A stretch of 64,000 nt of DNA from Granulicella sapmiensis (GTDB lineage Bacteria; Acidobacteriota; Terriglobia; Terriglobales; Acidobacteriaceae): NCBI GenBank assembly GCA_026225395.1, contig JAMFSR010000021.1, positions 186,001-250,000 on the forward strand. The letters run 5' to 3'. This document shows positions 1,436-63,452 of the stretch, in pieces; position 1 is the first letter of the stretch; each line of letters starts with the position of its first letter. A program made the position numbers and the translations under genes. The notes below the pieces were generated by a model that was not told the DNA's origin, searched no databases, and saw nothing but the letters and a program-made list of their open reading frames with translations.

Positions 1436-1452
1436 AATCCCGAGGGGGAACC

Positions 1453-3921: not shown

Positions 3922-3935
3922 ACAAAGTCGCGATC

Positions 3936-3976
3936 TCTCCCCTCACCTCCGCCCCTTTAGGGCGGAGGCAGGGAGA
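3936..3976. repeat. Perfect palindromic element in the btuB-btuC junction
   Basis: CCTCCGCCC (3946-3954) and GGGCGGAGG (3960-3968) form a perfect 9-bp stem with a 5-base loop. An outer TCTCCC/GGGAGA pair (3936-3941, 3971-3976) extends it through a small internal loop. It follows the btuB stop and precedes a TTG codon with GGGAG eight bases upstream. It could be a dispersed REP-like unit, or an RNA hairpin that tunes expression between receptor and permease. There is no U-tract, so it is not a classical terminator. Confidence 0.6.
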
Positions 3977-3983
3977 CCGCGCG

Positions 3984-10276: not shown

Positions 10277-11853
10277 GAGCCCGCGCCATCATGGTTCTCG
10301 GAACGAGCTCACACGTCGGAAAATCTTTGCTGACCGCCGCGCTCTGCCGCATCTTTGCGCAGGAGGGCTACCGTGTAGCTCCATTCAAATCACAGAACAT
10401 GTCCCTCAACTCAGCTGTCACTCCGGAAGGCCTGGAGATTGGTCGCGCACAAGCCCTTCAGGCTGAAGCCGCCGGTGTTTCTCCATCGGTCCACATGAAC
10501 CCCATCCTCTTAAAACCCTGCGGAGATATGACCTCTCAGGTCGTCGTCCGGGGAAAGATCTGGGGCAAGTTAACGGCGGCAGACTATCACCTTCGTCGCG
10601 TCGATGAACTCTGGCCCATCATTCGAGAGAGCTATGAAACGCTCGCCTCACAAAATGACATCATCATTCTCGAAGGCGCAGGCTCTCCTGCTGAAATCAA
10701 TCTCAAACAGCACGACATCGTAAACATGCGCATGGCGGAGCTAGCGGATGCCGCTTGCCTTCTCGTCGGCGATATCGATCGCGGTGGAGTTTTCGCTTCC
10801 CTGCTTGGCACAGTCGAGCTACTCGATCCACACGAACAGGATCGTATCCGCGGCTTCCTCATCAACAAGTTCAGAGGCGATATCCAACTTCTTGCACCCG
10901 GAGTTCGCATGATTGAGCATCGCCTCGGCAAACCTTGCCTCGGTGTAGTTCCACACCTGCACAACCTAACGCTTGATGAGGAAGACAGTCTCGGCCTTCC
11001 TGCTCCTGACGTACGAGACGATTCTCAATGGACCCCAATTAATGATCTTTCGCGACCCCTGCGCATCGCTGTCATAGCCCTTCCATCGTTTTCGAACTTC
11101 ACCGACTTCGATGCTCTACGCGCGGAACCATCAGTCTCACTCCATCTGTGTCGCACTCCCGAGAGCCTCGCCAATGCGGATATCATCATCATTCCAGGCA
11201 GCAAACAGACCGCTAACGATCTTATCTGGATGCGCTCCGTGGGGTTGGACATAGCAGTAGTCCATCACGCAGCACAAGGCCTCGTAATCGGCATCTGTGG
11301 AGGCATGCAGATCCTTGGACAAGACATCGTAGATCCTTCTGGGGTCGAACACACAGATGCCATTGCAGGTTTGTGCCTGCTCTCGATTCATACAACCATG
11401 CAACCACAAAAGATCACGCGCCTCACTTCCGGTCGCCTGTTAGCTCCATCACTCTTCCGCCAACCAATGACATCGTCGCGAGTAAGCGGTTATGAAATCC
11501 ACGTCGGCGAAACACGCTATGTGGATGGAGCACAACCCTTCGCCGAACTCCGTACAGATACGAGCCAGCAAAGCCTTCTTGATGGCTGCGTCGCGTCCAA
11601 TGGACAAGTCTTCGGCAGCTACCTTCACGGGCTTTTCGACGATGATGGTTTCCGCCACGCATTCCTCATAGCCGCTCGCGCCTTTTACAAACTTGCCCCA
11701 ACGAGTCAATGCAATAACTGGAAACAAGACCGCGAAGACAATCTAAATCGCCTAAGCGATGCGGTCCGATCGTCAATCGACATGCCGCAACTCTTCTCGT
11801 GGATCGGCCTTATCTACCAGCACAATGCAAACCAGGAAGGGTGCCGATCGTGA
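10273..11853 (+). CDS. cobQ: Cobyric acid synthase
   Basis: Amidates carboxylates b, d, e and g of adenosylcobyrinate a,c-diamide using glutamine and ATP. The 526-residue protein has an N-terminal dethiobiotin-synthetase-like ATPase (GTSSHVGKS, then VAPFKSQNMSLNS) and LEGAGSPAEINL with LVGDIDRGGVFASL. A C-terminal class I amidotransferase follows, with nucleophile Cys in GICGGMQILGQ and His in GSYLHGLFD. The start is a GTG overlapping the bluB stop (GTGA). It is often named cbiP in anaerobic-type pathways. Together with cbiA it lets the cell use incomplete corrinoids. Confidence 0.95.
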   Translation: MRARAIMVLGTSSHVGKSLLTAALCRIFAQEGYRVAPFKSQNMSLNSAVTPEGLEIGRAQALQAEAAGVSPSVHMNPILLKPCGDMTSQVVVRGKIWGKLTAADYHLRRVDELWPIIRESYETLASQNDIIILEGAGSPAEINLKQHDIVNMRMAELADAACLLVGDIDRGGVFASLLGTVELLDPHEQDRIRGFLINKFRGDIQLLAPGVRMIEHRLGKPCLGVVPHLHNLTLDEEDSLGLPAPDVRDDSQWTPINDLSRPLRIAVIALPSFSNFTDFDALRAEPSVSLHLCRTPESLANADIIIIPGSKQTANDLIWMRSVGLDIAVVHHAAQGLVIGICGGMQILGQDIVDPSGVEHTDAIAGLCLLSIHTTMQPQKITRLTSGRLLAPSLFRQPMTSSRVSGYEIHVGETRYVDGAQPFAELRTDTSQQSLLDGCVASNGQVFGSYLHGLFDDDGFRHAFLIAARAFYKLAPTSQCNNWKQDREDNLNRLSDAVRSSIDMPQLFSWIGLIYQHNANQEGCRS

Positions 11854-46084: not shown

Positions 46085-46210
46085 AAGGGCTTCTTTTCTC
46101 CAGCCCTCTCTTGACCAGCACGGAGATCCAGTCTTCGTCACGGTTCTCTCCGAATTGTTCCTCTTCTGCATGAGCAAGCCTCCTAGCTCCCCTGACTCTT
46201 AGAATTCACA

Positions 46211-49200
46211 CTAGGGAACAGTTGCCGTTTCGGAAGTGACACGTAGCCGTGAGTCATAGCAGCGGGTAACACCCAGATTGTTGCCGAGCATCCAGTTCTG
46301 CAAAGCACCGGCAGCGTTATAACCCTGCACAGAGGAGCCACATGCAGTGCCACTTTGAGACGAAAATAACGTTGAAGGATGAAGTACGTCGCTCCAGGAA
46401 CTTGTCAGAGTCTGCAGGCGACCAGCGGTATCGTAATGCTGAGTAAACAAAATCTGATTCAAGCCGTCAGTCCAATTGACTGTATTTCCAGCGAGGTCAT
46501 ACCCTTGCGTCAAGCTGAACGGAACGCCACCGGAGGCACAATTGCCCAGAACGCATTGCTGGGAATGCTTCACCCGCCCCAAAGCGTCATATGCCGTGAT
46601 CAGCTCTGCGGTCAGCGCCCCCGTTGATGGCACTGTAGAGGAACATGTTCCAGCCGACTCACTCTGGGTCCACTCAGCCGTCATCCGTCCGATTGGATTT
46701 GCGCTAGACGTAGTCCCTGCCACGGTATCGTACTGATAGCAAGTATTGGTCGTTGAAGAAGGATCGTTCGAGTAATACTTCCCGGTGAGACGATTCAGTG
46801 CGTCATAGGTGTAATGGGTCTGGACACCCCGTGCGTCCGTCTTATATTGGACATTGCCATTTGGATCATAGGAGTATGTTGTGACACCCGATGGTATCCC
46901 AGAAACTGCACTGCTAGGACATTGGTTATGGCTGTTCTCGGGGTTGGACGCGCAAATAAGTCGGGACAACGAATCATGGGTAAAATTACGCGTTCGGGGC
47001 GTGTCAGTAGTTCCATTTCCTATTTGAGAAACCCCGATTAGATTATTCTGTGGGTCGTATGTGTAAAACGTTGTTAGCGTCCCTTGCTCAACAATCTTTG
47101 ACAAACGTCCAAGCGCATCATTGGCCTGTGTGGATAAATGGCCTAATTCATCCCTTTTCGTGGTTATGTTTCCATTATAGGTCCATTGTAAGTATGCGTT
47201 CCCGGGTACGCAAGCGCCAGATCCGGTGCCATTGTCAGGCTGACATTGATAGTGTATGCGACCCAAAGCATCATAGTCATATGATGTATAACCATCAGAA
47301 CTGGATTGCGTAGAGAAATGAAGATTCGAAATCGACGCTGCTCGCCCCATAGAATCGTATACGGTCTCGGAACTAGCTCCGCTTGCAGCCACGGTTCGCA
47401 CTTGTCTTGCTAGACCATCAAATGTTTGGCTTGATGTCTGAGCCGGACTGGGAGAAGCGGTAACAATCTCAGTCACTGTCCCGGCTAAGTCATTATATGT
47501 AATGTCCGTTTCACCCTGTCCGTAAGGAGGCGTTGGTGGGTTAACGACCCTTGTAAGTCTCCCGAAGGGATCTTCATGGTAGTAACTTGTCGTATGTGCC
47601 GGATCATTGGGCGCGTTCCCGTTTTCATCGGTATGCCAATTTATATTGCCAGTGTTGGGATCATAGGAAAAATAATCAACGTGAATTGTGCTCCCAGTAG
47701 TGCTCCGTTGAATTTCCTGCGGGAATATTCCCGTTGCGTCATACGTCGTGTGGACGTGATTTCCGTTAAAACCTGTATTTAGATTAGCGTCGTAAGTATC
47801 CGTTGGCATTCCTTGGGGATTGTAAACCGTGCTTGCTAGAACAGTCCCACCAGTAGTGTTCAGCCACCGCCCGACCGACGTCCGATTCCCGTATATACCC
47901 TGTGGACTTCCATTATTTTCATCATACCCGTAGGTGACTGACGTCATAGGAGATCCAGAAATGCTTGCAGTTCCAACGGAGGATACTAGGTTGAGGAGGT
48001 TCGCCCCATTGTAAGGTGATGCGGGTTCCATCCATTTATAGTTTACGGTGATTAATTGACTGACACTGCCATCGGTACTTGTCTGAGTGACGGTTTTCGG
48101 TTTACCCCAGTAGATTGGCACACTGCCTCCCACCACAGTACATCCTGTCCCGTCTGCTAAACATACGGGCCACACAGCACTGAATTGTGAAGTATAAGTA
48201 TCAGAATTTGTTGTCGTTGGCCCCCCTATAAGACCGGTCGTTTCACTTTGCAATTCCCCATTGCCTGTCTTAGCGCTATATGTACCTAGGATCACTTGGT
48301 TCGCGTAGGTCTTCGCGTCTGTTTTCAAGAGATTGCCGCCAGCGGCAGAACCAGAGTAGTAGTCAACCTCTGTTTCAGATGGGTAAGCCCCCAACAAAGG
48401 GCCGACATCACTGAAGGTATGAACCGTATCGTTACCAGCAGGATCTGTGTATGTTGTCGTGTAGGAAGCAGGCGGTGGAAATATGGGGACGGATATCACA
48501 GTATAGCTATATTGTGATGGAGGGTAAGATGTTGTTCCGTCCGACAGATAGCGGCTACCCACCATTAGGTATGACATCTCTGTCTCGGCTGGAGCATATC
48601 CATAAGTAACACTACCGCCAGTCGGGTAAATGAGCTTCGTCAAGGAGGCATAAGCTACCGGGCTGGCATTTGGGTCGTAAAATCCACTTGGAGAGGCGGG
48701 ATTTCCTGATCCCAAGAACAACGGCCCAGCAGAGTCATAGACGAAGGCCCAATAAGTGCCATTCGGTAATGTTAATGATTGAAGAGCGTAGTCGGATCCA
48801 ATGGCGCCTAGCTCGTAATATCCCGTAAATCCTGTGCAATCATCTTCTACACAAGGATACGTGCCAACCCCCCGTACCCCTCCATCAAAATTGGTGTTAT
48901 AGCTAATCGTCGCAAAGCAGAAGAGATACGTCACATTTCCGCCGTTTGGTCCGGGCACTATCCATTGCTTTGAGAAAGCGGGTGCCTGGTTTGGGATCCC
49001 GAGATTTGGGCACGAAGAGGTGTTTGTGGATTCGGGGCCAACGGTAAAGTCGGGAATGATTCGCCCCAGAGAATCTGTCACCGAGCCTAAAACAATGGAT
49101 GCATCGTTGTATTCATTGTATTGGTTGAAGGTAAGTTGATTTCCATTGGGATCGGTCATGGTCCTCAAGGGCCCTTGAGCGAGCAATACGTCTCCTTGAT

Positions 49201-49879
49201 ACATAGTTGTTGTGGACGATGAATGGCAATCTGCTGCCGTATACTTTATCCCCGATGGAGTAGTAATAACACCGGCTTTTACACCCACCACTCCATCCGA
49301 GCAGGCCACATATACGGAATTATCAAAAGGGTAGTAGGGCTGAGATCCCGAAGGTGCATCGTACCGGAAGCCTGTTCCATCTACAGCACGTAGCGTGGTC
49401 CAGTTGCTAGAGTCAAAAAGCATGGTATGCCCTGAACCATCGGCTCCCTTTATCGCATACCACCCTGGCGACTGGAGCGCAAGGTTGGCGTCCGCTGGCT
49501 CCGGTGCGCTATATCCGATATCAAGAGCTTGATCCATTACAAGTTTTGGTCCAATATTCCCATCGTATATATATCGATATACGCAGGAGTCGGAATTTGG
49601 CGGACCATCCTGGCAATCTTGATAGTAGGTATAAGTAGTAGTGTTATATACCAGCGAATAGCTTAGGCTTAGACCGCCTTTTTGAGGTAAAGAGAATAAA
49701 GGAATACGAACCGACATATTGCCATTCCTAAGGTCGACATCGTCTACATCTCCGCCCTGGTAGCTTCCCCAAGTCGAAATTCCCTTTTCTTGGCTCACTT
49801 CATCCGAGACCTGTCCCAAAACAGGCAGACACGCTATAGCCGCGAACATAAAAATTGAAATACAGAAGATTGGTTTCAT
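46211..49879 (-). CDS. Large secreted RHS-repeat protein lacking the core end
   Basis: 1222 residues with a signal peptide (ISIFMFAAIACLPVLGQ) and the N-terminal RHS/TcC-like beginning STWGSYQGGDVDDVDLRNGN and LSLSYSLVYNT. Dozens of YD repeats follow (ITYNDLAGTVTEIV, TSYDYDALGRIHYQ, THYTYDALNRLTGK). It stops at RVTSETATVP without the RYYxxxxGRxxSPD core end. The following gene on the same strand, 126 bases on, supplies exactly that end but has its own leader. The start overlaps the stop of the gene before it (ATGA). Either a single RHS was split by recombination or this is a two-subunit design. Confidence 0.85.
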   Translation of the reverse strand: MKPIFCISIFMFAAIACLPVLGQVSDEVSQEKGISTWGSYQGGDVDDVDLRNGNMSVRIPLFSLPQKGGLSLSYSLVYNTTTYTYYQDCQDGPPNSDSCVYRYIYDGNIGPKLVMDQALDIGYSAPEPADANLALQSPGWYAIKGADGSGHTMLFDSSNWTTLRAVDGTGFRYDAPSGSQPYYPFDNSVYVACSDGVVGVKAGVITTPSGIKYTAADCHSSSTTTMYQGDVLLAQGPLRTMTDPNGNQLTFNQYNEYNDASIVLGSVTDSLGRIIPDFTVGPESTNTSSCPNLGIPNQAPAFSKQWIVPGPNGGNVTYLFCFATISYNTNFDGGVRGVGTYPCVEDDCTGFTGYYELGAIGSDYALQSLTLPNGTYWAFVYDSAGPLFLGSGNPASPSGFYDPNASPVAYASLTKLIYPTGGSVTYGYAPAETEMSYLMVGSRYLSDGTTSYPPSQYSYTVISVPIFPPPASYTTTYTDPAGNDTVHTFSDVGPLLGAYPSETEVDYYSGSAAGGNLLKTDAKTYANQVILGTYSAKTGNGELQSETTGLIGGPTTTNSDTYTSQFSAVWPVCLADGTGCTVVGGSVPIYWGKPKTVTQTSTDGSVSQLITVNYKWMEPASPYNGANLLNLVSSVGTASISGSPMTSVTYGYDENNGSPQGIYGNRTSVGRWLNTTGGTVLASTVYNPQGMPTDTYDANLNTGFNGNHVHTTYDATGIFPQEIQRSTTGSTIHVDYFSYDPNTGNINWHTDENGNAPNDPAHTTSYYHEDPFGRLTRVVNPPTPPYGQGETDITYNDLAGTVTEIVTASPSPAQTSSQTFDGLARQVRTVAASGASSETVYDSMGRAASISNLHFSTQSSSDGYTSYDYDALGRIHYQCQPDNGTGSGACVPGNAYLQWTYNGNITTKRDELGHLSTQANDALGRLSKIVEQGTLTTFYTYDPQNNLIGVSQIGNGTTDTPRTRNFTHDSLSRLICASNPENSHNQCPSSAVSGIPSGVTTYSYDPNGNVQYKTDARGVQTHYTYDALNRLTGKYYSNDPSSTTNTCYQYDTVAGTTSSANPIGRMTAEWTQSESAGTCSSTVPSTGALTAELITAYDALGRVKHSQQCVLGNCASGGVPFSLTQGYDLAGNTVNWTDGLNQILFTQHYDTAGRLQTLTSSWSDVLHPSTLFSSQSGTACGSSVQGYNAAGALQNWMLGNNLGVTRCYDSRLRVTSETATVP

Positions 49880-51207: not shown

Positions 51208-52194
51208 CTACTGTAACGCGACCAAGACTTCAATCGTTCCTGTTCCAACGTTCAGCTTTCCAAGTGCTTTACCGACGATAGCGCCTGTCATTGCGCTCCT
51301 ATCAGTTCCCTTCATGACGTAACCCCAAGAAGAAGATGTAACTAGAAGGTCACCCACTTTGATCGGACCGTTTTCGGCGGATACTTTGGTCGGAACAATG
51401 CCTACCATAGCCATCGGGATCTCGGTGGTGCTGCTCTTGGGATCGGTAGTTTGGCGCCTACCCACAAAGCCGGGCTTCGTGGAATAGATTCCTGCGACGA
51501 GTGTTGAGTAGGGCTCAGAAGATTTGAGGAAATGACCTGGATTCGATGGGTCGATGACGATCACGTCACCCGGCTCGTATTGGGTTTTGTCACCCGTCAC
51601 ATCGATCGATTCCGCATAGTCACCACCTGTTGAGCAGGTGGTCCCCGTATAGGCCGTGCTCTGCACCGAACCATCGGGGAAAGTTAAGGACGCTCCGGAT
51701 CCGGATGTCATCTTGACATTGCCGTTAATCTCTAAAGATGCGCCAGGGGTAGATGTTCCAATCCCCACGTTTCCGTTATCTCCGCGTATGACCATCGTGC
51801 CGTTGCCAGTCTGGAAGTTCAACCCGAAATAGCCCCCGATCTGGACAGCATTCTGGATTCCTTGCCATAGCGAAAGGTTGCTCACTCCGAGCCCATACCA
51901 GGGCGCTTGATTAATCCGGTCTGCCGGTTCACCTAGTACACGAAAGCCATGCCCCACACCCTCGCTTTCAATTTCGCCCCCAGCTCCTATCGCACCGCTG
52001 ACCGAGAATCCTCCATTCACATTGACGGCACCTGAAGATTGAGTAATGATCGATTGCTCGACATTTGAATTCCCCGTGAAATAGGGTACCGCCCCTGCAG
52101 CACCACCCGAGGTTGTGGTGACCGTTGTCTGCGCCCCTGCAAGGACCGAGCAACCGAGCAGCAACACGCCTGAAACCTTGATCAACGTCCTCAT
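51208..52194 (-). CDS. Secreted S74/tail-spike-like surface protein
   Basis: 328 residues from the methionine of MRTLIKVSG, with GGAG upstream. A leader (VSGVLLLGCSVLAGAQ) is followed by a beta-helical spike-like part with NGNVGIGTSTPGASLEINGN and the cassette SGSGASLTFPDGSVQSTAYT. The C-terminal domain of about 130 residues (DYAESIDV, YEPGDVIVID, VAGIYSTKPG, VGDLLVTSS, GAIVGKAL, EVLVALQ) resembles the autoproteolytic/chaperone ends of phage tail spikes (inference). Such proteins occur in Acidobacteriota and Bacteroidota outside phages. It belongs to a tandem family with the next two genes. Confidence 0.7.
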   Translation of the reverse strand: MRTLIKVSGVLLLGCSVLAGAQTTVTTTSGGAAGAVPYFTGNSNVEQSIITQSSGAVNVNGGFSVSGAIGAGGEIESEGVGHGFRVLGEPADRINQAPWYGLGVSNLSLWQGIQNAVQIGGYFGLNFQTGNGTMVIRGDNGNVGIGTSTPGASLEINGNVKMTSGSGASLTFPDGSVQSTAYTGTTCSTGGDYAESIDVTGDKTQYEPGDVIVIDPSNPGHFLKSSEPYSTLVAGIYSTKPGFVGRRQTTDPKSSTTEIPMAMVGIVPTKVSAENGPIKVGDLLVTSSSWGYVMKGTDRSAMTGAIVGKALGKLNVGTGTIEVLVALQ

Positions 52195-52256
52195 TTCATC
52201 TCCATACTTCTTAGCACCGCACTTCATCCTAACTGCGCCCGGTAATGCCACAACAA

Positions 52257-53180
52257 TCATTGCAATGTAACCAACACTTCAACCACACCGACTCCAGAGC
52301 TCAGCGTACCCATGGCTTTACCGACTACTGCGCCAAGCATCTTCATACGGTCCGTGCCTTTCATGGCATAGCCAGGGATAGACGCCGTGACGAGCAGATC
52401 GCCTCGCGAGATTGCTCCATTCTCAGCACTCACTTTCGTGGGCACGATGCCGACCATCGCCATCGGGATCTCTGTGGTGCTCGTTTTAGGGTCGGTTGTC
52501 TGCCTTCTGCCCACGACACCTGGCTTTGTAGAGTAGATTCCCGCTACTCGGGTGGAGTATGGCTCACTGGACTTTCCGACGTCAGAGTCACTTTCAAGGC
52601 CGATCACCATAACATCACCGGGCTCATAGGCATTGCGGTTGCCCGCAACGTTCACTGTTTCGGCATAATCACCACCCGTTGCGCAGGTGGTCCCGGTGTA
52701 CGCTGTGCTTTGGACCGTACCATCAGGAAAGGTAAGAGATGCCCCACTACCTGAGGTAAGCTTCACATTTCCGTTAACTTCAAGGGTTGTCCCGGGGGTC
52801 GTCGTGCCTATTCCGACATTACCGCTAGCAAGGACTGTAAAGAAATTTGTCGGCGAGGCTATGGCGCCCCCTTGGATGTTAAACCCATAGTAGGTATCCG
52901 TCGTAGTGGTGTCCCCAAAGAACAGATTCAGCGACTGCTCAGGCGTTGTCCCAGAATAGAGATGGTTATAGGCGTACGGCTGGCCACTGCCAGTGATTGC
53001 CAGCCCGGAGGCGATTGTTCCGTTGCCGTGGACCTCCAGGCTCGAACCTGGGCTGGACGTCCCGATCCCTACGTTGCCGCTCGACGGAAATGTGTTCGTC
53101 TGTGCTGTCAACGTCGCACAGCACAAGATCATTCCAACCGATATCCCAACCGAAATTCGACTCCACTTACCTCTCTGCAT
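52257..53180 (-). CDS. Secreted S74/tail-spike-like surface protein, paralogue 2
   Basis: 307 residues starting at MQRGKWSRIS (GAGGG upstream). It has a leader (VGMILCCATLTAQ), two GNVGIGT(S/T)(S/T)PG units, the shared SGSGASLTFPDGTVQSTAYT cassette and the same C-terminal domain as the gene at 51208 (DYAETVNV, YEPGDVMVI, PMAMVGIVPTKVSAENG, GDLLVTAS, EVLVTLQ). The part between leader and cassette is not conserved with its neighbour, so the family looks modular. The frame is open 60 residues further upstream, where it crosses the previous gene. Confidence 0.7.
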   Translation of the reverse strand: MQRGKWSRISVGISVGMILCCATLTAQTNTFPSSGNVGIGTSSPGSSLEVHGNGTIASGLAITGSGQPYAYNHLYSGTTPEQSLNLFFGDTTTTDTYYGFNIQGGAIASPTNFFTVLASGNVGIGTTTPGTTLEVNGNVKLTSGSGASLTFPDGTVQSTAYTGTTCATGGDYAETVNVAGNRNAYEPGDVMVIGLESDSDVGKSSEPYSTRVAGIYSTKPGVVGRRQTTDPKTSTTEIPMAMVGIVPTKVSAENGAISRGDLLVTASIPGYAMKGTDRMKMLGAVVGKAMGTLSSGVGVVEVLVTLQ

Positions 53181-53224
53181 ACCGAAACCCTCGCACTCGC
53201 AATTCATTACCCTATTTGCCACTC

Positions 53225-55513
53225 CTAAATTTTCGTTGTCCACGTCCCGCTTGCGCAGAACGTTGCGTGTCCGTCTTGGGAAAAGGCCCATGCTCCATTC
53301 GTGGAACAAGACCCGGATGGGGTCGTTGCCGGGCCAAGCTCTTCCCCTCCGGTCGAACAAGTTGTCCCGACGTAAGCAGTGCTTTGCACTGTACCGTCAG
53401 GGAATGTAATCGAAGCTCCGCTGCCGGATGTCAATTTGAGATTGCCGTTCACTTCAAGTCGTGCTCCAGGAGTAATGGTTCCAATACCAACATTGCCGCC
53501 CGAGGCGATTCTGAAGTATTCAGAACCATTGCTTCCCATCGCCAGTCCAAAACCGCCGTTAGGTGGATTGAAATCAATGTATCCCTGCGGGGTAACATCA
53601 GTGACCGTTTGTATCCGCGTTGTCGCGGTTGTCCAGTCCCATCCATCTGTATTTCTAAACTGGGAGAACGTTAGGTAGTTGGCATTCGCATTATTGTTCT
53701 GTAGCGTCATGAGAGCGGTCGTATTACCGCTCGTGTTCCCAAGGGCAGCACCTTGGACTGTGAATGGGGTGCCCGGTCCGCCCGTACTGACACTCACACC
53801 TCCGGTGAATGTCTTCTGGGCAGATATTGTCTGAGGCTGATCGGTGTAGTCCACGTTGGCTGGCAAGCTAGCAGCAGCACCTGTATACGGGACGGTCTGT
53901 ACTACGCCGTTAGGAAATACGATTCCAGAACCCGCCGTGATAGTGCCGACCGTCGTGATTCCGCCACTCGCCGTGATGGTGCCCGAGACATTCAGGTTTC
54001 CTGCTCCGGGGTCCGTCCCTGCGATGGCGTTATTCCCGAGCGCGAGCCCACCGCTGCTGAAGAGCAACATCTTGCGCCCTGTTACATCCATCGTGGAAGC
54101 TATAGCGCCCGCAGCACCCGTAGTCACCGTATTGAAAGCTATATTTCCATTGTACATCCGGAAAGCTGAGGCTGGTCCTGCAGTGAAATATCGCCAATTA
54201 CTCCCGTCATAGTAGGTGTTATTTCCGAATGCCGATTGAAACCCAACTACGTTCTGGATCGCCGTTTCTGCCCCAATCTGCAACGGTGCGACGGGTGTCA
54301 CACTTCCAATTCCGATGTTGCCATTGGCAAGAACAGACAAGGAGCTCGTATTTACAAACCCATCACCAGATTTGAGGCCAATATAAATATCTCCAGAAGG
54401 ATCAAAAAGCTGGCGCACCAGCCCGGAAGTAGCATCACCAATTCCAAGCGAGCCTGGATAGACGCCTCCGTTCCCACTATTCCAATTTACGAGCGACCAT
54501 TCTCGCATGTTGCCGACAAGTGCAAGAGACGACCCATAGGAGGCACCTGGTGCTGCGTCGCTCTCAATCGTAACGGCTGCCGCCAGTGCATTTTTTACGT
54601 TGATATTCCCTGATGCTGAAGAAAAGGAGGTTCCGTCTGGGAAGATCAAAGAGCCTGCATCCATCTTGATCGAGCCATTTACCTCAAGAGGCTGTGTGGG
54701 TGAAGAAGGGGTGCCGACTCCAACATACCCGGCGGAGCTTAGGACTAGATTGTTATTCCAGCCCCAGGCGCCGTTGGTTATTGCTCTTGTCTGCAGATAG
54801 AGTCGGCCACTTGCGTCCTCGTTATCTGCCATATCGGCGGTAGCTAAGATACGTGCTTGCTCCCAAACATTCGAGCCATCCGTATTTGCAGCGGTGGCGA
54901 ACGATAACCCTGCTCCTGCCGAAGTCGACCGCCCCCCAAGCCCCTGGATAACCACATTCCCGTTTCCAAATGGGCCACCATTCGAGGCCAAAGCGACGGC
55001 CGCGCTCGCAACATGGAGCGCAGACTGAGGCACAGCGGTGCCGATACCGAGCTGACCTCCGGGGTTTAGTCGCATGCCTTCATTTAGAACTGCGCCACCG
55101 TTCGCGGTCTTGAAAGCCAAGTAGCCCGCACCACAGGACCAACAGGTTGGATCGCCCCCCGATTCGATCATGGCGAAGCCGGTGGGATTAGCTTCGCCGG
55201 AAAATGTGATGTTTTCGGTTGAAGCAGCTTCTGGGTCGCCAAACCAGTTATAGATATTGATTCCGACCGGAGTGAACGCTGCTCCACCATGAATATCTAA
55301 ACTGTATTGTGGGGCACTCGTGTTGATTCCGATGCCGCCACCTACACTGGTGCCTCCCTGATATAAGATCGAGGATGTCAGAGCGGTTGGCCCGGTATAT
55401 ACCGGAAAATTTTGAGCTGTTCCAGTCCCATCAGTAGTTACTGCGGTCTGTGCTAGGGCCGCAGAAGCGAAGGAAACAATCACGATGGGCAGCATTCTTA
55501 GAATTTGATTCAT
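53225..55513 (-). CDS. Secreted spike-like surface protein, long paralogue 3
   Basis: 762 residues beginning MNQILRMLPI, with a leader (IVIVSFASAALAQ). A long array of spike units follows: GGQLGIGTAVPQSALHV, AGYVGVGTPSSPTQPLEVNG, NGNIGIGSVTPVAPLQI, GNVGIGTITPGARLEVNGN. The shared cassette SGSGASITFPDGTVQSTAYV is near the end. The C-terminus differs from its paralogues: it lacks the DYAE domain and ends with a short Cys-containing tail (TCSTGGEELG ... ATFCASGTWTTKI). It may be a filamentous adhesin or S-layer-like component; function is unknown. Confidence 0.7.
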   Translation of the reverse strand: MNQILRMLPIVIVSFASAALAQTAVTTDGTGTAQNFPVYTGPTALTSSILYQGGTSVGGGIGINTSAPQYSLDIHGGAAFTPVGINIYNWFGDPEAASTENITFSGEANPTGFAMIESGGDPTCWSCGAGYLAFKTANGGAVLNEGMRLNPGGQLGIGTAVPQSALHVASAAVALASNGGPFGNGNVVIQGLGGRSTSAGAGLSFATAANTDGSNVWEQARILATADMADNEDASGRLYLQTRAITNGAWGWNNNLVLSSAGYVGVGTPSSPTQPLEVNGSIKMDAGSLIFPDGTSFSSASGNINVKNALAAAVTIESDAAPGASYGSSLALVGNMREWSLVNWNSGNGGVYPGSLGIGDATSGLVRQLFDPSGDIYIGLKSGDGFVNTSSLSVLANGNIGIGSVTPVAPLQIGAETAIQNVVGFQSAFGNNTYYDGSNWRYFTAGPASAFRMYNGNIAFNTVTTGAAGAIASTMDVTGRKMLLFSSGGLALGNNAIAGTDPGAGNLNVSGTITASGGITTVGTITAGSGIVFPNGVVQTVPYTGAAASLPANVDYTDQPQTISAQKTFTGGVSVSTGGPGTPFTVQGAALGNTSGNTTALMTLQNNNANANYLTFSQFRNTDGWDWTTATTRIQTVTDVTPQGYIDFNPPNGGFGLAMGSNGSEYFRIASGGNVGIGTITPGARLEVNGNLKLTSGSGASITFPDGTVQSTAYVGTTCSTGGEELGPATTPSGSCSTNGAWAFSQDGHATFCASGTWTTKI

Positions 55514-55534
55514 GCAACAAATCTCCCGGACCAT

Positions 55535-56134: not shown

Positions 56135-56836
56135 TTACTTCGCCTCCTGCACTTTGAAACTCAAGCCAAAGAGCCGTGTCTCATCGACACTCCACGTACG
56201 CTTGTTAGCAGCGAGTCGGAACAGACCTTTGGCGTTGTGGGTAATAATTGCTTCGCCGTCTGTGGGTTGCTCACGCAGGCTGGGCCAAAGCTGAAGAGTT
56301 GCTGCCCCACCGCTTGTTGAGTTCACTGTGTTCAGCACAGTGTGCAGACGATTACCAATCTGGATGTAATCACCCGGCAGCAAAAGTCTCATTGTTGACG
56401 GGAGCCAGCCCTTTGTCACCAGTGTGGTAGACATCGCCAGGTTGTTCGTGCCAAGCGCTCCATCAACCTCTGGAGCGCCTTGAGGAGTTCCTTGCGGGGT
56501 CTTCATGAAGGGATCACCCAGCAAGAAGACATTGGCTGGTCCCCTCGCTGCCATCAGGAATGCAATCCACTGAGCAGCTTGGGCGCGAGTCATCTTGGGT
56601 AACGTCAGTGTGGCCTGCCAGAAGTCACCGCCAGGCCAAGCCTGGAACTGACTCTGTTGCGTGAACGGTTGTGCTACTTGAGCTACTGTGTCACTGACTG
56701 AGAACTCAACGTCTCTGAAGCCGGGGCCGCGTGGGAAGGGCATTACGTTCCAACCGTTGAACGTAGTCACATTTGTGAAGTCGGGTACTACTGGGTAGGT
56801 ACTAATGGCTGCTCCCTCTTGCCCTTGCGGACACAA
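56135..56836 (-). CDS. Phage minor tail protein
   Basis: About 233 residues. Blocks PGGDFWQATLTLPKMTRAQA, AAQWIAFLMAARGPANVFLL and GDP, then LLLPGDYIQIGNRLHTVL and GLFRLAANKRTWSVDE match a widespread unnamed tail protein of siphophages, encoded near the tail-tip genes. There is no ATG at the conserved beginning: the longest frame starts at a TTG, while AGAGGGAG sits just before an ATT (ISTYPVVPDF), so the start is uncertain. It is the last gene of the leftward tail operon. Confidence 0.7.
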   Translation of the reverse strand: MCPQGQEGAAISTYPVVPDFTNVTTFNGWNVMPFPRGPGFRDVEFSVSDTVAQVAQPFTQQSQFQAWPGGDFWQATLTLPKMTRAQAAQWIAFLMAARGPANVFLLGDPFMKTPQGTPQGAPEVDGALGTNNLAMSTTLVTKGWLPSTMRLLLPGDYIQIGNRLHTVLNTVNSTSGGAATLQLWPSLREQPTDGEAIITHNAKGLFRLAANKRTWSVDETRLFGLSFKVQEAK

Positions 56837-56895
56837 ATGCGAAAGCCCACCACAGGGCTGCTGTGGTGGGCTATGGGCTATTTACAGTTATTGCT

Positions 56896-59886
56896 TTAGC
56901 TGCACCCGGTGATCTTGCCACCACTCACCGTTAGTGTCGTAGTGGGGGCGCAGGTGCCGGTGTATGGCGCATACGCTGGTGACGCGGGCGTTCCCAGCGT
57001 GAAGAAACTGGCCTGGTTCGTCATGTTGTTGTATTCCTCGGTGAGCCATCCGACTGATCGCTGTACGAGCGAGACGCGGAGCTCATCGACGTTTTCCGCT
57101 GTGAGGTTTGCGAGCGAATTATTCGGTTGCCATAAACCGTTCACGGCTAGATAGTTGGGAAACGTCTTCATAGAGTTCGTGCAGGGGCCCAAGCCGGTGA
57201 CGCAGGTCATTGTCTGCATTGATCCATCGAGGAAGCTCTGCACGCTGGAGTAGTTTCCACCGGCAGGGAGGATCTGCGCGAGGAAATGCCAGTTGGTGTC
57301 GGGAGTGAATGGAAAGCTCTCTCCAGCCTCGCCCGTTTGCATGGCAATGGTTGAAGAGCCATAGATCGCCCCGAAATTACTGTTCTCGCTATAGAACCCA
57401 TAATTGAACATCATGGAGCCAGATGTCGGCGCGGTTGGGAATTGGAACCAAGCCTCTACCGTTCTCGCCTCTGATTCGCGCGGCAACCCCGGAATTGTCT
57501 TCGTTTCGTCTATAACCCCGGCCACATTCAAAAAGGCGAGCAACCCGGATGAGCTGGTAAGCGATTCGTATGTACCGAACTTACCTGTTGGGTTCGTATG
57601 ACTGCCGGAGCCCTGCGCGGTCATCTCGTTTCCAAGGCCCGATGAGTCAGCGAGCGGATCGCCATAGCTGCTGAAGTGGTACACGGAGCCATAGCCGTTC
57701 GACCAAACATCCGCCGCTCTGGAAGTGTCAACCGCGCTGGGATTGTCATAGTAGAGCGTGATGACGGATGAAGCAGTCGCCGAAAGCTGCGCTTTGACAT
57801 ACATCTCCAAAGAGCCGCTACCCCCGTCATAATGAGTCGTTTCATGTGAGAGCTGAAGCCCGTTCTCGCAGGCGATGATGTCGAAGCCGTTCTGCACATG
57901 ACCGACGAAGTCGGAGAGCGTTAGTGAGTTTGGTGCCGATCCATTGAATGAGAGCAGCAGTGGAAAATCAGCGAGCGCAGCCGGAGACGCCGCAACCGTT
58001 AGAGTCACCGATCGAGCAAAATCCTGCACCGGGCAGCTGCGCGCCGGCAACTGTGCCTGGCATATCGGCTGGCCCCGGTAATCCGATCCACGATAGTTCG
58101 TCCCCGCTGAGCAAGAAGACAGGCTGGATGGAAGCGTTTGAAGATCGCTTGTCGTTGCCTCGGCCATCGTGTCTTCATCGTGGTTAGCGAGGGTATTTTC
58201 GTGCGTCTCATCTGGCCCGAAGTAATACGGATTGAAGCTCTGCCCCCAGCGATCCCGCATATCACTATAGGACGCATTGACCGACTTCGCGTACGTCTCC
58301 ATCACGTTGTAGTAGGGAAGAATCTCCGAATACTCCGTGGCGCAGTTGGTTGCGTTTGGACAATCGATGCCGGGGATGAAGAAGTATACCGATGATCCGC
58401 GTGCCGTCTGGTGGTTGTAGATCTTGGTGAGGGATGTGAGGTATTGCGACGTGGTGGCATCTTGGGCAACCTCGTTTGTCAGGTGCTGGATCACAGTGAG
58501 CGCCGCAGGCGGGTTTAGATCGCTGTAAGCGAACTGAGTCGAAGGCGCATAGCCGAAGGTCTCTGCCGAGCCGCTGGCGATGCCTTCGCGGTCAAAGACC
58601 ACGCCACTCGCTCCGTTCAATCCGCCGAGCGCATAGAGAGCGCATGGATTCTCTGAACAGGTGACCGTCATGGTGTGGGTTTGGGATGTGACAAGCGATC
58701 CCGTAAAGAGCTCCGGGGTCACCGTTCCAGTGGTTGGACATGCAGTTCCCACACTCGCACCATCCACGGCCATAGCCCACGAACCGTAACTCGGTCCGGC
58801 AGAGCACCACGCTTTCGGCTGGTCGTAGGGTTCATAGGCTTTGAATGTGATAACGGTCCCGACCGGATAAATCTCGGTGAAGGCATCCACTATGGTTGCC
58901 CCGTTGACCTGGTAGGGGCCGTAGGCACTTGTGGTCGAGGTAGGAGCTGCTGTCGTCGAGAAGAAGTCGGGGTTGGGGACATAGCCGCAGCCCGAAGTGC
59001 CTTCGAGAAACTTCAGCGGAACCATACCGGGACCGCCATTGCCATACTGCTCCTGCAGGTGCATCCGCCATTGCTCAATCCAGCGATCAAGGGAGGCTAC
59101 CGCGATGCTCGGCTGCGAGCCCGGGTTGCACCGTCGATCTGTCGCGTTGTCCACCACTGCGCGCGAGTCGCCGATGATATCGATGAAGACATGCTGATTG
59201 CGCGCGTTGTGAAGAGCTGCGAGAAATGCCTGAAGAGGAGGTCGCGAGGTTGTCACATACTCTTGAACAGGCAGCGTATCAAGGATCGTCGAACTATCAC
59301 TTGGGCCGACATTACCACTACCGTTGCCCTCAGCAATCTGCACAGAACCAGGAGCGCCTTGCGCAGCATTTCCGCTGCCCGGAATGCCTTGCGCGCCTTG
59401 GATGCCTTGAGGCCCTGCCGGACCGGTCTGAACGAGCGCAACAGCAGCTAGGTTCGGCACGTAGGTGTCAAAGTTGCAAGTGGTACTCGTACACCAAGAA
59501 GCAACACTGGACGGCTGTACACAACTATACCCACCACCCAGGACGTTCTCACCACTGTTAGGGTCAACAACCGTCACACTAAAGCAGACGTTGGCCGGCG
59601 CAGTTAGGTGAGTATCTGGCAGCGTCACGCTGAATGCACCATTTACCACAGGCGCCTGCACAGGTCTTGAAATCGCCTGCCCCAGACCGCCAATGCGGTA
59701 CGAGATCGGATTTCCCGAACCGTCAACCGGAGCGAAGTAGACGGTGCCGTTGACAAGTGGGGTTCCGGTTGAATCAACCACGTTGCTGGCCGATACGGTC
59801 AGAGTGCCAATTGGTGTAGCGTAGGCCGTTGAAAGACCGAAGAAGAACAGCAGCACCACTAGAACCAGTGTCTTCAACTTATTCAT
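56896..59886 (-). CDS. Secreted tail-fibre-like protein with collagen, SGNH-hydrolase, DUF2341 and LamG domains
   Basis: 996 residues from MNKLKTLVLV (GTGGAG upstream). A clear Sec signal peptide (LVLVVLLFFFGLSTAYA) is followed by a beta domain and a collagen-like stretch (GPAGPQGIQGAQGIPG). An SGNH/GDSL hydrolase domain has block I FIDIIGDSRAVVD and block V FGPDETHENTLANH. DUF2341 follows (TLTVAASPAALADFPLLLSF, VITLYYDNPSA), then a LamG-like jelly roll (ARTVEAWFQFP, NWHFLAQ). The hydrolase would suit de-esterification of surface glycans. It starts within the preceding tail-operon gene (8-base overlap), yet an N-terminal export signal is unusual for a tail fibre. Confidence 0.75.
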   Translation of the reverse strand: MNKLKTLVLVVLLFFFGLSTAYATPIGTLTVSASNVVDSTGTPLVNGTVYFAPVDGSGNPISYRIGGLGQAISRPVQAPVVNGAFSVTLPDTHLTAPANVCFSVTVVDPNSGENVLGGGYSCVQPSSVASWCTSTTCNFDTYVPNLAAVALVQTGPAGPQGIQGAQGIPGSGNAAQGAPGSVQIAEGNGSGNVGPSDSSTILDTLPVQEYVTTSRPPLQAFLAALHNARNQHVFIDIIGDSRAVVDNATDRRCNPGSQPSIAVASLDRWIEQWRMHLQEQYGNGGPGMVPLKFLEGTSGCGYVPNPDFFSTTAAPTSTTSAYGPYQVNGATIVDAFTEIYPVGTVITFKAYEPYDQPKAWCSAGPSYGSWAMAVDGASVGTACPTTGTVTPELFTGSLVTSQTHTMTVTCSENPCALYALGGLNGASGVVFDREGIASGSAETFGYAPSTQFAYSDLNPPAALTVIQHLTNEVAQDATTSQYLTSLTKIYNHQTARGSSVYFFIPGIDCPNATNCATEYSEILPYYNVMETYAKSVNASYSDMRDRWGQSFNPYYFGPDETHENTLANHDEDTMAEATTSDLQTLPSSLSSCSAGTNYRGSDYRGQPICQAQLPARSCPVQDFARSVTLTVAASPAALADFPLLLSFNGSAPNSLTLSDFVGHVQNGFDIIACENGLQLSHETTHYDGGSGSLEMYVKAQLSATASSVITLYYDNPSAVDTSRAADVWSNGYGSVYHFSSYGDPLADSSGLGNEMTAQGSGSHTNPTGKFGTYESLTSSSGLLAFLNVAGVIDETKTIPGLPRESEARTVEAWFQFPTAPTSGSMMFNYGFYSENSNFGAIYGSSTIAMQTGEAGESFPFTPDTNWHFLAQILPAGGNYSSVQSFLDGSMQTMTCVTGLGPCTNSMKTFPNYLAVNGLWQPNNSLANLTAENVDELRVSLVQRSVGWLTEEYNNMTNQASFFTLGTPASPAYAPYTGTCAPTTTLTVSGGKITGCS

Positions 59887-60211
59887 TTGTGTCTCCACGT
59901 CGGGAGGCCGGGGTCATGCCAAACCTACAGAGCAAACCCATCAAGGTGATGAGTTCAGACACCTGTAAATCGGAATTCCTCATGCGATATACCGTCTTGC
60001 AAAGGACTTCGAGACTGAGGCTTTCTCCGGTTGTGAATTGCATTGGTGACGAATTCCGAAGAATCTCTGACCAGATCCATTGCTCTGCTGGAGAGAGATA
60101 TCCAGGAGCGGGACCTATAGGGGTGCTGTCATTGACGGAGGGTGATTTTAAGACGGGTTCAGGGGTTTCGGGCATAAGTTTCTCCAGAGGTGTGCCCGCC
60201 GGAGTGTTCAC
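59879..60211 (-). CDS. P27-family terminase small-subunit-like protein
   Basis: 110 residues starting at GTG. After a Pro-rich linker comes GYLSPAEQWIWSEILRNS, a helical middle (LEVLCKTVYRMRNSDLQVS), and the ending LLCRFGMTPASRRGD, which matches the GLTPASR end of P27-type small terminases. Such genes normally lie beside the large terminase at the head end; here it is between tape measure and fibre. It could be a true small subunit in an unusual order or a related DNA-binding tail-region protein. Confidence 0.55.
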   Translation of the reverse strand: MNTPAGTPLEKLMPETPEPVLKSPSVNDSTPIGPAPGYLSPAEQWIWSEILRNSSPMQFTTGESLSLEVLCKTVYRMRNSDLQVSELITLMGLLCRFGMTPASRRGDTNE

Positions 60212-60242: not shown

Positions 60243-63200
60243 TTACCTAGACATTGAGGGTCTACGTGACTTGCTCTCAGCCATCGCTGTGGCAGTGCCA
60301 CGAGCCATGTGGGGCGCGTACTGAGACATTGCGCGATGGACTGCAGCTTCTGTCTGGGCAGGATCGTTCGAGCCGCGCGCATCAATGTGGATGTCGCCGC
60401 TCTTACCTCCCATGTCCTTGTTCGGTGTGATTTTGCCGTTCTGAGTGGGCGTGAAGCGTTCCCTTCCCATCTCACCAACGTCATAGGTCATGCCGGCCGT
60501 CACGTCGCCACCAAGGGCGCGATGACCACCGAAAGCACCCATGAACCCACTGAGCAGAGGACCTGCGCCAGGGATCATCGACAGGAACGGTGCCATTGCA
60601 CTAGAAGCGGTTTGCCAACCAGGACCAGAGGTGATGGCCGTAGACGAAGCAGTAGATGAATAGCCACCCATAGGTCCAGGGCCTGTCATGGTGCGCAGGG
60701 TATCTCGTACCTGAGTCAGAAGCATATTGGTTTGGTTGATAGCACCAACCGTTGCATCTGGCTTCTTATCACCCTTGCCCAGAGCGCCCATGATTCCACC
60801 TACGAGAGCCTGTTCGCCCTTTTGCAGGCCAAGCTTGGCTATACTCGTAGAGATACCATGGAAGAACTCAGCGAAGCTGATCTTCTGCCTCTCAATCATC
60901 TTCAAGAGCGAGCTATTCAAAGACTCGAACGTGCCTTCTAGCAGAGTGTGTATCTGGTCGGCCGCTGACTCAGTGCCTCTGGACATCTCTCTAAAGAAGA
61001 CACTAACTCCATCTGAAGCATTGCCAACAGCTAGAGTCGTCTTGTCGACGGCAGAGAGGTAGGCTTCCCAGTTGGTTTTGTTGGCTGCTGCCATCTGCAT
61101 AGCCGAGATCGCAACACCCGCATCCTTGGCAGCCGCTGCAGCGGCTGCCAGTGCCGTAGCCTGCGCACGGTAACCGTTTGTTGGGTCCATCGACATAGCC
61201 CGCGTCAAGTTGGCTTCCTGCTGTTTTAGAGCAAAGAGCTTTTCATTGGCTACGAGCTCAGCATTGAGTGCTGATTGGTCTGTATCTCCACGCTGTGAAT
61301 ACTTGGAGCGAATAGCTTCCTGCTCCACGGCGAGGGCTGCCTCTTGTCTCGCTTGTGTTCCACGCACAATCGCACCGTTGAGGATCAATTGTGCATTGAT
61401 CTGAGCTTGAACGCTGGTTAGCGCGAGAGCATCAGACCCGGCATTGGCTTTGTCATAGTTCATGCCGAAGGACACATTGTCGCGAGACCTAGCAACAGCG
61501 TTTTTCTGCTTCCACTCTTCAGACTGCCCAGCATCACGCTTGGCTGCATTGGCAGCGATGGCAGCAGCACGAACGACGTCTGCACCCTTGCCGATGGCCT
61601 GCGTGAGGATTTCCTGTGCCTGCGCTTGAGAGAGCAGACCGTCTGTGACCTTCTGGAGCTCTTCGCGATACTTAGCCTGGGACAGGTCATTGACGCGTGT
61701 GGTGATGCTCGACTTGAGCGCGGCTTTGTCTGCCTCGCTTATGGTCTTGCCCTGTGTCTTGAGTGCAGCTTCGAGCTCGATTACCGTTTTCGTATACTCT
61801 TTGGCTATTTCATCAGAGCGTTCGAAATCGATTCCCTTGCCGGCATCACGCAATGTATCCTGCGCAGCCTTGGCCGCAGCAGCGAGCTCATCTAGTTTCA
61901 GCTTGAGGTGATCAATCTTGTCCGTTTGGTCTTTTGGTACGACCGGGGCATCAAGCTTGGGCATTGGAGCAGCCTGCTTAATACCCGCCAAGAGCTTGTC
62001 AGCGCCATTAAACTGCTGCTGCATCCGGTATTGATCATCCGTCATACCGCGACGGGCTTCACCCGCTTGCTGCACGAGTGTCTTGAAGGAATTGAACTTC
62101 CAATCTCTGGCGGCAAAGTCGCCCATGTTGCCGGTTAGCAAATCCAGGGTCTTGACGACGTCGTTCATGCTGTCTTTGACTGACAAGAGGCTAGCATTCC
62201 AGATATCAGCCCATTTACCGCCGTCAATTTCTGAGCCCATTGCCGATTCTGAGATTTTATAAAAAGCAGTCGCAATCGCCGTCAACACCACGAGTGCGGC
62301 CGTAGCGGGGTTAGTGAGCATGGCACCCTTGACGACGTCAAGCGCAGTCTTGGCCGCGTACGCTGCTGTCTCCATGAACCCGAAGGCCCGGTACAGCTTC
62401 AAAACAGATGCCTCGCCGGTAACTGCTCCTTTGATCAACGGTCCAAATGCTGTGCCCAGAGAGGTGAGCCCGCTCATACGGCTGATCATTTTCACCGCGA
62501 CTAGGCCAATAGAATCGATACCTTTAGTGGCGCCGGCTGAACCGGTTATCAGTGGTAAGAAAATGCTTGCAGCTTGAAGGAGAGCAAAGCCCTCCAGGGT
62601 TCGCTTGACGGCCGTAGCATGTTCGACAAGGAATTCAAACGCTGAGCCCACGTCGTAGATCGCTTTGGAAACGTCAATAGCAACCGTGTCCACGGTCCTC
62701 ATGCCATTGGCGCTGGTAACGAATTTCAGAATCTTGTCGCTAGCGTCCTGCAGGGCCGGCGACACACCACTGAGCAGACGCACACTGAATCCGAGCGCAA
62801 CCGATTCAAGCTGCTCTAAGGATTCATGGAGTTGCTTAGCTTGGGCCGCAGTTTTGTCACCAACCACAACTCCGAAGAGCGAAGCTTGCTGAGAAGCAGT
62901 GTCAAAACCTGTGGCTATTTGCTTGAGCAACGGGGCGAGCTCGGCGCCGGAACGTCCAAATATCTTCTGCTCCAAGCCAGTCTTCGCGGTCGAGTCCTTG
63001 AATTTGTCCAAGCTCTTCGACGCAGCAACCATGAGGTTGCCTGAGTCCTTCAGCGGGCCTTCCAAGTCCTTAACTGAGATGCCGAGAGCAGCATAGGCTG
63101 CCACAGCTTCCTTGTTGCCATTCTGAGCAGCAGATGAAGTTCTTGCCAGCTTCTCCATCGCCATTTTCACGTCGTCGACGGGCACGCCCGCGAGTTTCGC

Positions 63201-63452
63201 CGAGTAGGCCAATTTGCTGAACATCTCGACGCTCGAACCTGTCTGCTGTGCCATCTTCTGCATCGAGAACGCGAAGTCCTCAGCTTTAGCAATGGCAGCA
63301 GTCAGACTTCCAACAATGGACGCTGCCATCGCGGTAGCAGCGCCAGAAATCAGCGTCAGTGAGCGTTGGATATTGCGCCCTGTGGTCATGCTCAGCTGAC
63401 TCATCTTGGAAAGTTCTTTTGAAAACGATACTGTGTTAGCAACGAGATCCAC
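60243..63452 (-). CDS. Phage tail tape measure protein
   Basis: 1069 residues. The N-terminal part (NTVSFSKELSKMSQLSMTTG), hydrophobic helices (GAATAMAASIVGSLTAAIAKA) and long Ala/Lys/Gln-rich coiled coils are typical. The TP901-like core SKLAYSAKLAGVPVDDVKMAM and the C-terminal lambda-H-like part (FAEFFHGISTSIAKLGLQKGEQAL, GGDVTAGMTYDVGEMGRERF) fit. It sets tail length and helps DNA entry. The GTG at 63452 is the first usual start, but the conserved opening seems to continue upstream (ISIRIGTISVDLVANT) to a TAG, so the true start may be a rare codon or the product of a frameshift. Confidence 0.9.
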   Translation of the reverse strand: MDLVANTVSFSKELSKMSQLSMTTGRNIQRSLTLISGAATAMAASIVGSLTAAIAKAEDFAFSMQKMAQQTGSSVEMFSKLAYSAKLAGVPVDDVKMAMEKLARTSSAAQNGNKEAVAAYAALGISVKDLEGPLKDSGNLMVAASKSLDKFKDSTAKTGLEQKIFGRSGAELAPLLKQIATGFDTASQQASLFGVVVGDKTAAQAKQLHESLEQLESVALGFSVRLLSGVSPALQDASDKILKFVTSANGMRTVDTVAIDVSKAIYDVGSAFEFLVEHATAVKRTLEGFALLQAASIFLPLITGSAGATKGIDSIGLVAVKMISRMSGLTSLGTAFGPLIKGAVTGEASVLKLYRAFGFMETAAYAAKTALDVVKGAMLTNPATAALVVLTAIATAFYKISESAMGSEIDGGKWADIWNASLLSVKDSMNDVVKTLDLLTGNMGDFAARDWKFNSFKTLVQQAGEARRGMTDDQYRMQQQFNGADKLLAGIKQAAPMPKLDAPVVPKDQTDKIDHLKLKLDELAAAAKAAQDTLRDAGKGIDFERSDEIAKEYTKTVIELEAALKTQGKTISEADKAALKSSITTRVNDLSQAKYREELQKVTDGLLSQAQAQEILTQAIGKGADVVRAAAIAANAAKRDAGQSEEWKQKNAVARSRDNVSFGMNYDKANAGSDALALTSVQAQINAQLILNGAIVRGTQARQEAALAVEQEAIRSKYSQRGDTDQSALNAELVANEKLFALKQQEANLTRAMSMDPTNGYRAQATALAAAAAAAKDAGVAISAMQMAAANKTNWEAYLSAVDKTTLAVGNASDGVSVFFREMSRGTESAADQIHTLLEGTFESLNSSLLKMIERQKISFAEFFHGISTSIAKLGLQKGEQALVGGIMGALGKGDKKPDATVGAINQTNMLLTQVRDTLRTMTGPGPMGGYSSTASSTAITSGPGWQTASSAMAPFLSMIPGAGPLLSGFMGAFGGHRALGGDVTAGMTYDVGEMGRERFTPTQNGKITPNKDMGGKSGDIHIDARGSNDPAQTEAAVHRAMSQYAPHMARGTATAMAESKSRRPSMSR

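Follow-up and report, generated by a model that had tools for sequence, protein, structure and literature searches.

A tail-fibre-like protein with a predicted Sec leader in a phage remnant of Granulicella sapmiensis, and a possible periplasmic route of fibre assembly in Acidobacteriota phages

Here we describe a gene for a tail-fibre-like protein with a predicted export leader in Granulicella sapmiensis, found in a 64,000-nucleotide stretch of contig JAMFSR010000021.1 (positions 186,001 to 250,000, hereafter the window). The gene, assigned from its open reading frame and its relatives, lies on the minus strand at 56896-59886 and runs without an internal stop from an ATG at 59886, with a GGAG ribosome site 5' of it, to give a product of 996 amino acids. 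The protein begins with MNKLKTLVLVVLLFFFGLSTAYA followed by TPIGT, the predicted signal peptidase I cut falling between the two, and residues 1-23 (59818..59886, minus strand) have the basic n-region, hydrophobic core and A-x-A type site of a Sec/signal peptidase I leader. This call, like every leader count below, was made with a home-made sequence rule rather than with SignalP. By that rule the leader reported in an earlier note on this DNA is real and clear, and export of the window protein is well supported by its sequence. Textbook tailed viruses build their fibres in the cytoplasm, and a tail fibre of a tailed phage is expected to carry no export signal; 52 copies, the window's among them, depart from that expectation, and like the earlier note we find such a leader paradoxical.

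Directly after the leader comes a beta-rich N-terminal domain of about 130 residues (residues 24-155; 59422..59817, minus strand) that is common to the fibre family, as judged by alignment, HMM and structure model. The model has a mean pLDDT of 71; its best match among viral structures (E 2.5e-5) is unnamed, the first named match being a minor tail protein at rank 4 (E 1.2e-3), and its PDB matches, which include a tail fibre of a cyanophage (E 0.039), are weak (best E 0.022). Leaderless tail-module proteins share the domain, and outside the family its matches are structural only. A short collagen-like stretch follows (GPAGPQGIQGAQGIPG; 59347..59424, minus strand), recognised from sequence and without a Pfam call, and then an SGNH/GDSL-like region (58087..59274, minus strand). 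Pfam returned no SGNH/GDSL match for the window protein, above cut-off or otherwise, and the region is defined by alignment to the fibre of locus L024 (33% over 646 columns, E 4e-71), which itself matches Lipase_GDSL_2 at E 2.5e-4 with 22 bits against a Pfam cut-off of 32.9; in the leaderless relatives L027 and L028 the GDSL domain scores above cut-off (37.0 and 36.7 bits). The alignment, with positions checked, places Ser241, Asn471, Asp559 and His562 of the window protein in the order of the catalytic residues of SGNH hydrolases. A single-sequence structure model of this region was unusable (pLDDT 34), and a PDB sequence search with it gave only E about 0.9. A DUF2341-like region (57673..57867, minus strand) reaches E 0.028, and no LamG domain was detected in the window protein. 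The list of domains in the earlier note survives in part: the N-terminal leader stands, the collagen stretch is short, the SGNH and DUF2341 assignments are weak, the latter lying below its Pfam cut-off, and LamG drops out.

Like many of its relatives, the gene sits in a tail module beside tape measure (TMP), distal tail protein (Dit) or hub genes, in its own case between a TMP gene (60243..63452; phrog_8462, E 1.6e-28) and a Dit gene (56135..56836; phrog_1302, E 7.6e-33), both on the minus strand. The overlap with a neighbouring gene that the earlier note described is present (8 nt, 59879-59886), but the neighbour, taken there for a tail gene, looks like a terminase small subunit (TerS). This 110-aa ORF (59879..60211, minus strand), which comes after the TMP gene, is 35.5% identical over 76 aa to the TerS of L028 (E 5e-11), its sole good relative among the loci compared; the L028 protein, encoded directly 5' of a large terminase gene, matches phrog_83 at E 2.6e-19, and the window ORF itself does so only at E 0.48. 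A 12-bp perfect hairpin without a U tract (56844..56872, minus strand) separates the fibre stop from the Dit start and was not called as a terminator in a promoter and terminator scan, which performed close to chance level. Further leadered fibre-like proteins are encoded on the same strand, a second at 53225..55534 (phrog_18345, E 3.9e-7), whose C-terminal end resembles that of the L024 fibre, a third at 52257..53360 (phrog_9942, E 9.6e-6) and a fourth at 51208..52260 (no PHROGs match); all three are possible members of the element. An integrase was noted at L002:5855-7036. When 24 phage marker proteins were sought in the window and in the 40 kb to its right, only relatives of TMP and Dit were present. 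The element has the look of a scrambled remnant and, as it stands, cannot make virions.

Beyond the window, a whole-protein search of 200 genomes of the bacterial family gave matches in 20, three of them through the C-terminal part only, and an N-domain profile matched in 39 of 398 family genomes and, in a phylum-wide draw, in 6 of 396, all from the same family (own genome included in each count). A scan of IMG/VR viral contigs yielded 13 loci, each with a leadered copy, and a genome-contig scan yielded three, whose titles name Acidobacteriota, Terriglobia and Acidobacteriaceae. Nothing useful came of searching viral contigs or phage records with the whole protein, and an N-domain search of phage records gave one match at E 0.3. 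Among the non-duplicate copies with a readable start from family genomes and IMG/VR contigs, 52/62 carry the leader and 10/62 are leaderless. The same rule called 3/195 co-located phage proteins leadered, and in the first count the leader was enriched above chance (46/53 copies against those 3/195, Fisher test). The window protein is thus one member of a tail-fibre family of Acidobacteriota phages that is mostly made with a predicted Sec leader.

The first HMM table held 62 rows, of which six were dropped (a second match in L098, a pair of rows that were partial or frameshifted from each of L036 and L074, and L105, a weak match deep within its frame and without a leader), and subsequent removal of the duplicates L074 and L083 left 54 copies, 47 leadered and seven not. 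L031, which failed the rule with a net charge of 0, was reclassified by eye as leadered and is excluded from the Fisher test. This count covered 45 of the 56 family-genome match rows; the other 11 were added later, bringing in L119, L122, L123, L124 and L127 as leadered and L120 (a frameshifted gene), L125 and L126 as leaderless, together with L121 (start missing) and L128 (a weak match, no leader). The proportion of 52/62 omits L105, L121 and L128, and becomes 52/64 with L105 and L128 taken as leaderless. The near-copies L026 and L087 were both retained in the leader count, the cysteine parity counts below omit the truncated L040, L077, L085 and L119 and the short L127, and the tree was built from 47 of the 54 copies, omitting distant or short ones.

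The hydrophobic cores of the leaders are strong, and glutamine occupies position +1 in 32/46 under a site rule that is blind to Gln, the window copy having Thr. The cleavage site of leadered copies abuts the N-domain, leaderless copies start at or near that domain, and the mature N-terminus of the former aligns with the start of the latter. A start-codon artefact was considered and is unlikely, given that the leaders obey the n-h-c layout and that, in the initial set of seven leaderless copies, six have fewer than 15 codons of frame before the start. The best tree, built from 47 copies, calls for two gains or losses of the leader, while its well-supported branches taken alone force one. Because the leader is spread over the family tree, we set aside the one-off capture of a host gene offered in the earlier note. 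That note had also proposed checking whether free-phage homologues have the leader; both states were found, in the 13 leadered IMG/VR loci, in the ten leaderless relatives, and in two Tunturiibacter phages with leaders on predicted tail or structural proteins. It had counted absence of the leader from homologous fibres, together with presence of the protein in virions, as evidence against its proposal, and this is seen in part, ten relatives being leaderless.

The genomic setting is that of a phage in most cases. At least one of the 24 markers occurs in 42/49 loci and none in 7/49, with the qualification that some markers were derived from the same loci and that the sole markers of L039, L089 and L091 were judged to be phage by eye. 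The family occupies two types of tail module, TMP-Dit-hub and DUF2460-Gp84-NlpC-GTA-hub. Fibres of the TMP-Dit-hub modules may be leadered or leaderless, and a fibre placed between TMP and Dit is leadered in the window, L024, L035, L094 and L103 and leaderless in L027, L028 and L086. Where the GTA-type hub is present, the fibre lies downstream of it in all 19 loci (two of which are near-copies) and every counted copy is leadered. Six class-2 loci, two of them near-copies, were inspected by eye gene by gene, and from hub to endolysin the fibre was the sole long fibre-like ORF seen in its direction. In three proteobacterial phages whose hub is related, long tail proteins are encoded ahead of it; they are leaderless and cysteine-poor.

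Exported proteins that form disulphides tend towards even cysteine numbers. The window copy has 20, and the count is even in 41/44 complete mature leadered copies (p 1.6e-9), or 44/47 with L122, L123 and L124 added. Taken by part, the N-terminal domain is even in 43/44 leadered copies and the remainder in 40/42. Relatedness was allowed for by taking one representative per C-terminal cluster (12/12 even, with 10/12 clusters even throughout and one cluster holding 23/42 copies) and by finer clustering (34/34 representatives even). Non-leadered control ORFs are even in 92/171 cases, or 56/97 among those with at least four cysteines, and co-located phage proteins, against which composition bias was checked, in 74/153. 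Parity separates the leaderless copies poorly, 5/6 being even as whole proteins and 5/8 with L125 and L126; by part, where the separation is better, they are even in 2/7 N-terminal domains and 3/7 remainders, at a split point of the analyst's choice. Cysteine density is 1.52 per 100 residues in leadered against 0.91 in leaderless copies (p 0.007), a difference that had p 0.08 when first counted, from different cleavage sites and with L031 placed among the leaderless copies. The paired cysteines of the leadered fibres are as expected of disulphide-bonded proteins and are indirect evidence for folding in an oxidising compartment.

Leadered proteins are also predicted in cultured phages. Tunturi_1 and Tunturi_4 are described as infecting the soil bacterium Tunturiibacter. 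In Tunturi_1 five proteins of the tail-spike block look leadered (gp12, gp13, gp14, gp16 and gp17, with 20, 10, 20, 1 and 32 mature cysteines), and in Tunturi_4 three do (gp111, if its start lies upstream of the annotated one, gp113 and gp114, with 12, counted from residue 31, 8 and 20), so that 7/8 have an even number. Their tail or structural roles are annotations, with gp12, gp13 and gp16 annotated as hypothetical, and in a PHROGs scan of seven of these proteins two matched and five did not. No leader was found among 28 CDS of Tunturi_3, fibres included, or among 12 CDS of Tunturi_5. Tunturi_1, a phage of unproven lifestyle, has no annotated integrase. The terms "mass spectrometry" and "structural protein" are absent from the main text of the Tunturi paper.

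The protein may be read as a tail fibre because its N-domain and gene slot are common to leaderless relatives, and as periplasmic because of the leader, the cysteines and the +1 glutamine; the simplest way to unite the two sets of signs would be a fibre that is exported, folds oxidatively and docks once lysis has joined the compartments. The host Sec machinery would export the fibre, signal peptidase I would cut it, usually before Gln and in the window copy before Thr, and the mature chain would fold and form its disulphides in the periplasm. Once lysis breached the inner membrane, the N-domain would dock on tails at the Dit/hub region, so that the fibre would join the tail at lysis rather than in the cytoplasm. 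In P22 and T4, fibres and spikes can join finished particles outside the cell. The window fibre would act as a putative SGNH esterase on host glycans. What speaks for this at the level of sequence is the leader, its spread, the tail-module position, the paired cysteines and the leaderless relatives; from these we infer actual export, trimerisation, docking at lysis and esterase activity. Against it we count the ten leaderless relatives, two of which, with GDSL domains, occupy the same slot, the seven marker-free loci, the leaderless CDS of Tunturi_3 and Tunturi_5, the poor separation of leaderless copies by whole-protein cysteine parity, the density difference that depended on the count, the inability of the window's own element to make virions, and the rule-based nature of the leader calls. 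That a Sec-exported, periplasm-folded fibre docks on tails at lysis we hold at just under an even chance. The wider proposal, that many tailed phages of Acidobacteriota use a two-compartment assembly in which cytoplasmic heads and tails meet Sec-exported, disulphide-bonded periplasmic fibres only at lysis, the route being switched on or off by gain or loss of a leader before one docking domain, is held more tentatively, as a possibility that falls somewhat short of even.

The leader alone would predict exported fibres that are not virion parts and whose target is the producing cell or the cells around it, coating or de-acetylating surface glycans, blocking receptors (superinfection exclusion) or clearing exopolysaccharide before release, with host binding left to another phage protein such as the hub tip. 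Lambda Lom offers a precedent (PMC12309495), as do the Porphyromonas phage genes with Q-rule leaders, which their authors see as possible envelope modifiers (PMC10367356). Against such a role stand an N-domain and gene slot held in common with leaderless relatives, the six class-2 loci inspected by eye, in which no second fibre gene was seen, and the leadered genes of Tunturi_1, a phage without an annotated integrase. A role confined to the lysogen, as the earlier note proposed under superinfection exclusion, is not needed and fits that phage poorly, although its lifestyle is unproven. We consider action outside the virion rather unlikely, and the strongest rival to docking at lysis. An inefficient or conditional leader, leaving part of the fibre in the cytoplasm for virions and exporting the rest, would explain how leadered and leaderless relatives come to share one slot and would suit the roughly two gains or losses of the leader on the best tree, where well-supported branches alone force a single change; no sign of weak leaders is seen in the sequences, however, their cores being strong, and cysteine pairing points to a fold acquired beyond the cytoplasm. 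A dual fate appears improbable.

Least probable, and in our view very improbable, is a traffic of genes in which MAT-like host adhesins were captured into tail operons, or fibres by hosts, leaving the leader as a relic in phages. The Bdellovibrio MAT layout is alike, with a beta-rich domain of about 130 aa after a signal peptide (PMC10769870), the ownership of the leadered fibre-like genes at 51208-55534 of the window is unclear, and seven of 49 loci lack a phage marker; yet a relic should decay, whereas leaders persist in divergent copies and cysteines stay paired, and the other 42 loci do have phage markers. For the window copy alone, the domesticated tail device of the earlier note is possible, since of the 24 markers only TMP and Dit relatives are near. 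The host would then have kept the remnant as a secreted adhesin or esterase. In favour of this, the genes for head, hub and most of the tail were not found near the fibre, the TerS-like gene has been displaced to between TMP and fibre, and the ORFs of fibre, TMP and Dit are intact. The remnant may, however, simply be recent, and we think domestication unlikely; as it concerns one copy, it does not compete with the readings of the family as a whole.

Tail fibres determine which hosts a phage chooses. If two-compartment assembly is correct, it would be a new way for tailed phages to put their virions together, and if a whole phage group exports its fibres first, fibre assembly, disulphide chemistry and release would need rethinking, with a pool of fibres that meets the cell surface and neighbouring cells before lysis. 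The idea is testable, the Tunturi phages being culturable, and the leadered and leaderless pairs in one gene slot amount to a natural experiment.

Searches of the open-licence literature aimed at leaders on tail proteins gave no description of a systematic leader on tail fibres. What is already known is that some phage genes have leaders (Lom, the Porphyromonas Q-rule genes and one PblB) and that Bdellovibrio secretes fibre-like adhesins. Lambda Lom resembles the window fibre in being a signal-peptide protein from within a tail operon, its gene lying between those for tail spike and tail fibre, but it is described as a beta-barrel protein of the outer membrane (PMC12309495), not as a fibre bearing the N-domain of leaderless tail-module proteins. 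The Q-rule leaders share a glutamine at +1 after the signal peptidase I cut and are described as a feature of Bacteroidetes (PMC5837995), and the Porphyromonas phage genes that bear them similarly appear adapted to host export, although they have no assigned function and are not called fibres (PMC10367356). PblA and PblB of streptococcal prophages are likewise phage tail proteins that serve as adhesins, and one pneumococcal PblB is reported with a predicted signal peptide, but their host is Gram-positive and release of S. mitis PblB is tied to lytic-cycle permeabilisation (PMC4508584). The fibres of Bdellovibrio are similar in layout, with a signal peptide and then a beta-rich domain, and differ in being encoded and used by a predator bacterium (PMC10769870). 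Similar in gene setting are gene 240 of Acinetobacter phage Effie and the fibres of L027 and L028, which, like the window fibre, have an esterase-like domain and lie in a tail module among hub or Dit genes; gene 240, likened by position and domain, has six cysteines in 717 aa and lies before the hub rather than after it, and unlike the window fibre all three are made without a leader.

Predicted export leaders also occur on tail-block or predicted tail or structural proteins of cultured phages of Tunturiibacter. The podovirus Tunturi_1 (L108:10371-23028) carries a run of proteins with such leaders, gp12, 13, 14, 16 and 17, around its annotated tail spike gene. The predicted leader of Tunturi_4 gp111 (L107:30076) would begin upstream of the annotated start, which seems to leave it out.

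Several loci with relatives of the window fibre hold multiple or broken copies. At L076, three fibre copies with predicted leaders adjoin the tail hub gene on both strands (1436-6199, minus; 9811-11161, plus), an arrangement that could represent an invertible or duplicating fibre cassette. The frameshifted N-domain fibre gene at L036:10447-12400 is a second copy adjoining an intact one, and that at L120 is frameshifted and leaderless.

In the window, a perfect 12-bp hairpin lacking a U tract (56844-56872) lies between the fibre stop and the start of the distal tail protein gene (Dit). After Dit, three more fibre-like proteins, all with a predicted leader, are encoded at 51208-55534; they contain repeats of the GNVGIGTTTPG type, and the end of one resembles that of the L024 phage fibre. 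RHS-repeat proteins are encoded at 43661-49879, one of which (1222 aa) has a leader-like N-terminus.

Gln occupies position +1 in 32/46 leaders of the fibre family and in 6 of the 19 putative host leaders from the window and neighbouring loci, a pattern suggestive of a non-Bacteroidetes habit akin to the Q-rule, the Gln at +1 after signal peptidase I cleavage described as a Bacteroidetes feature.
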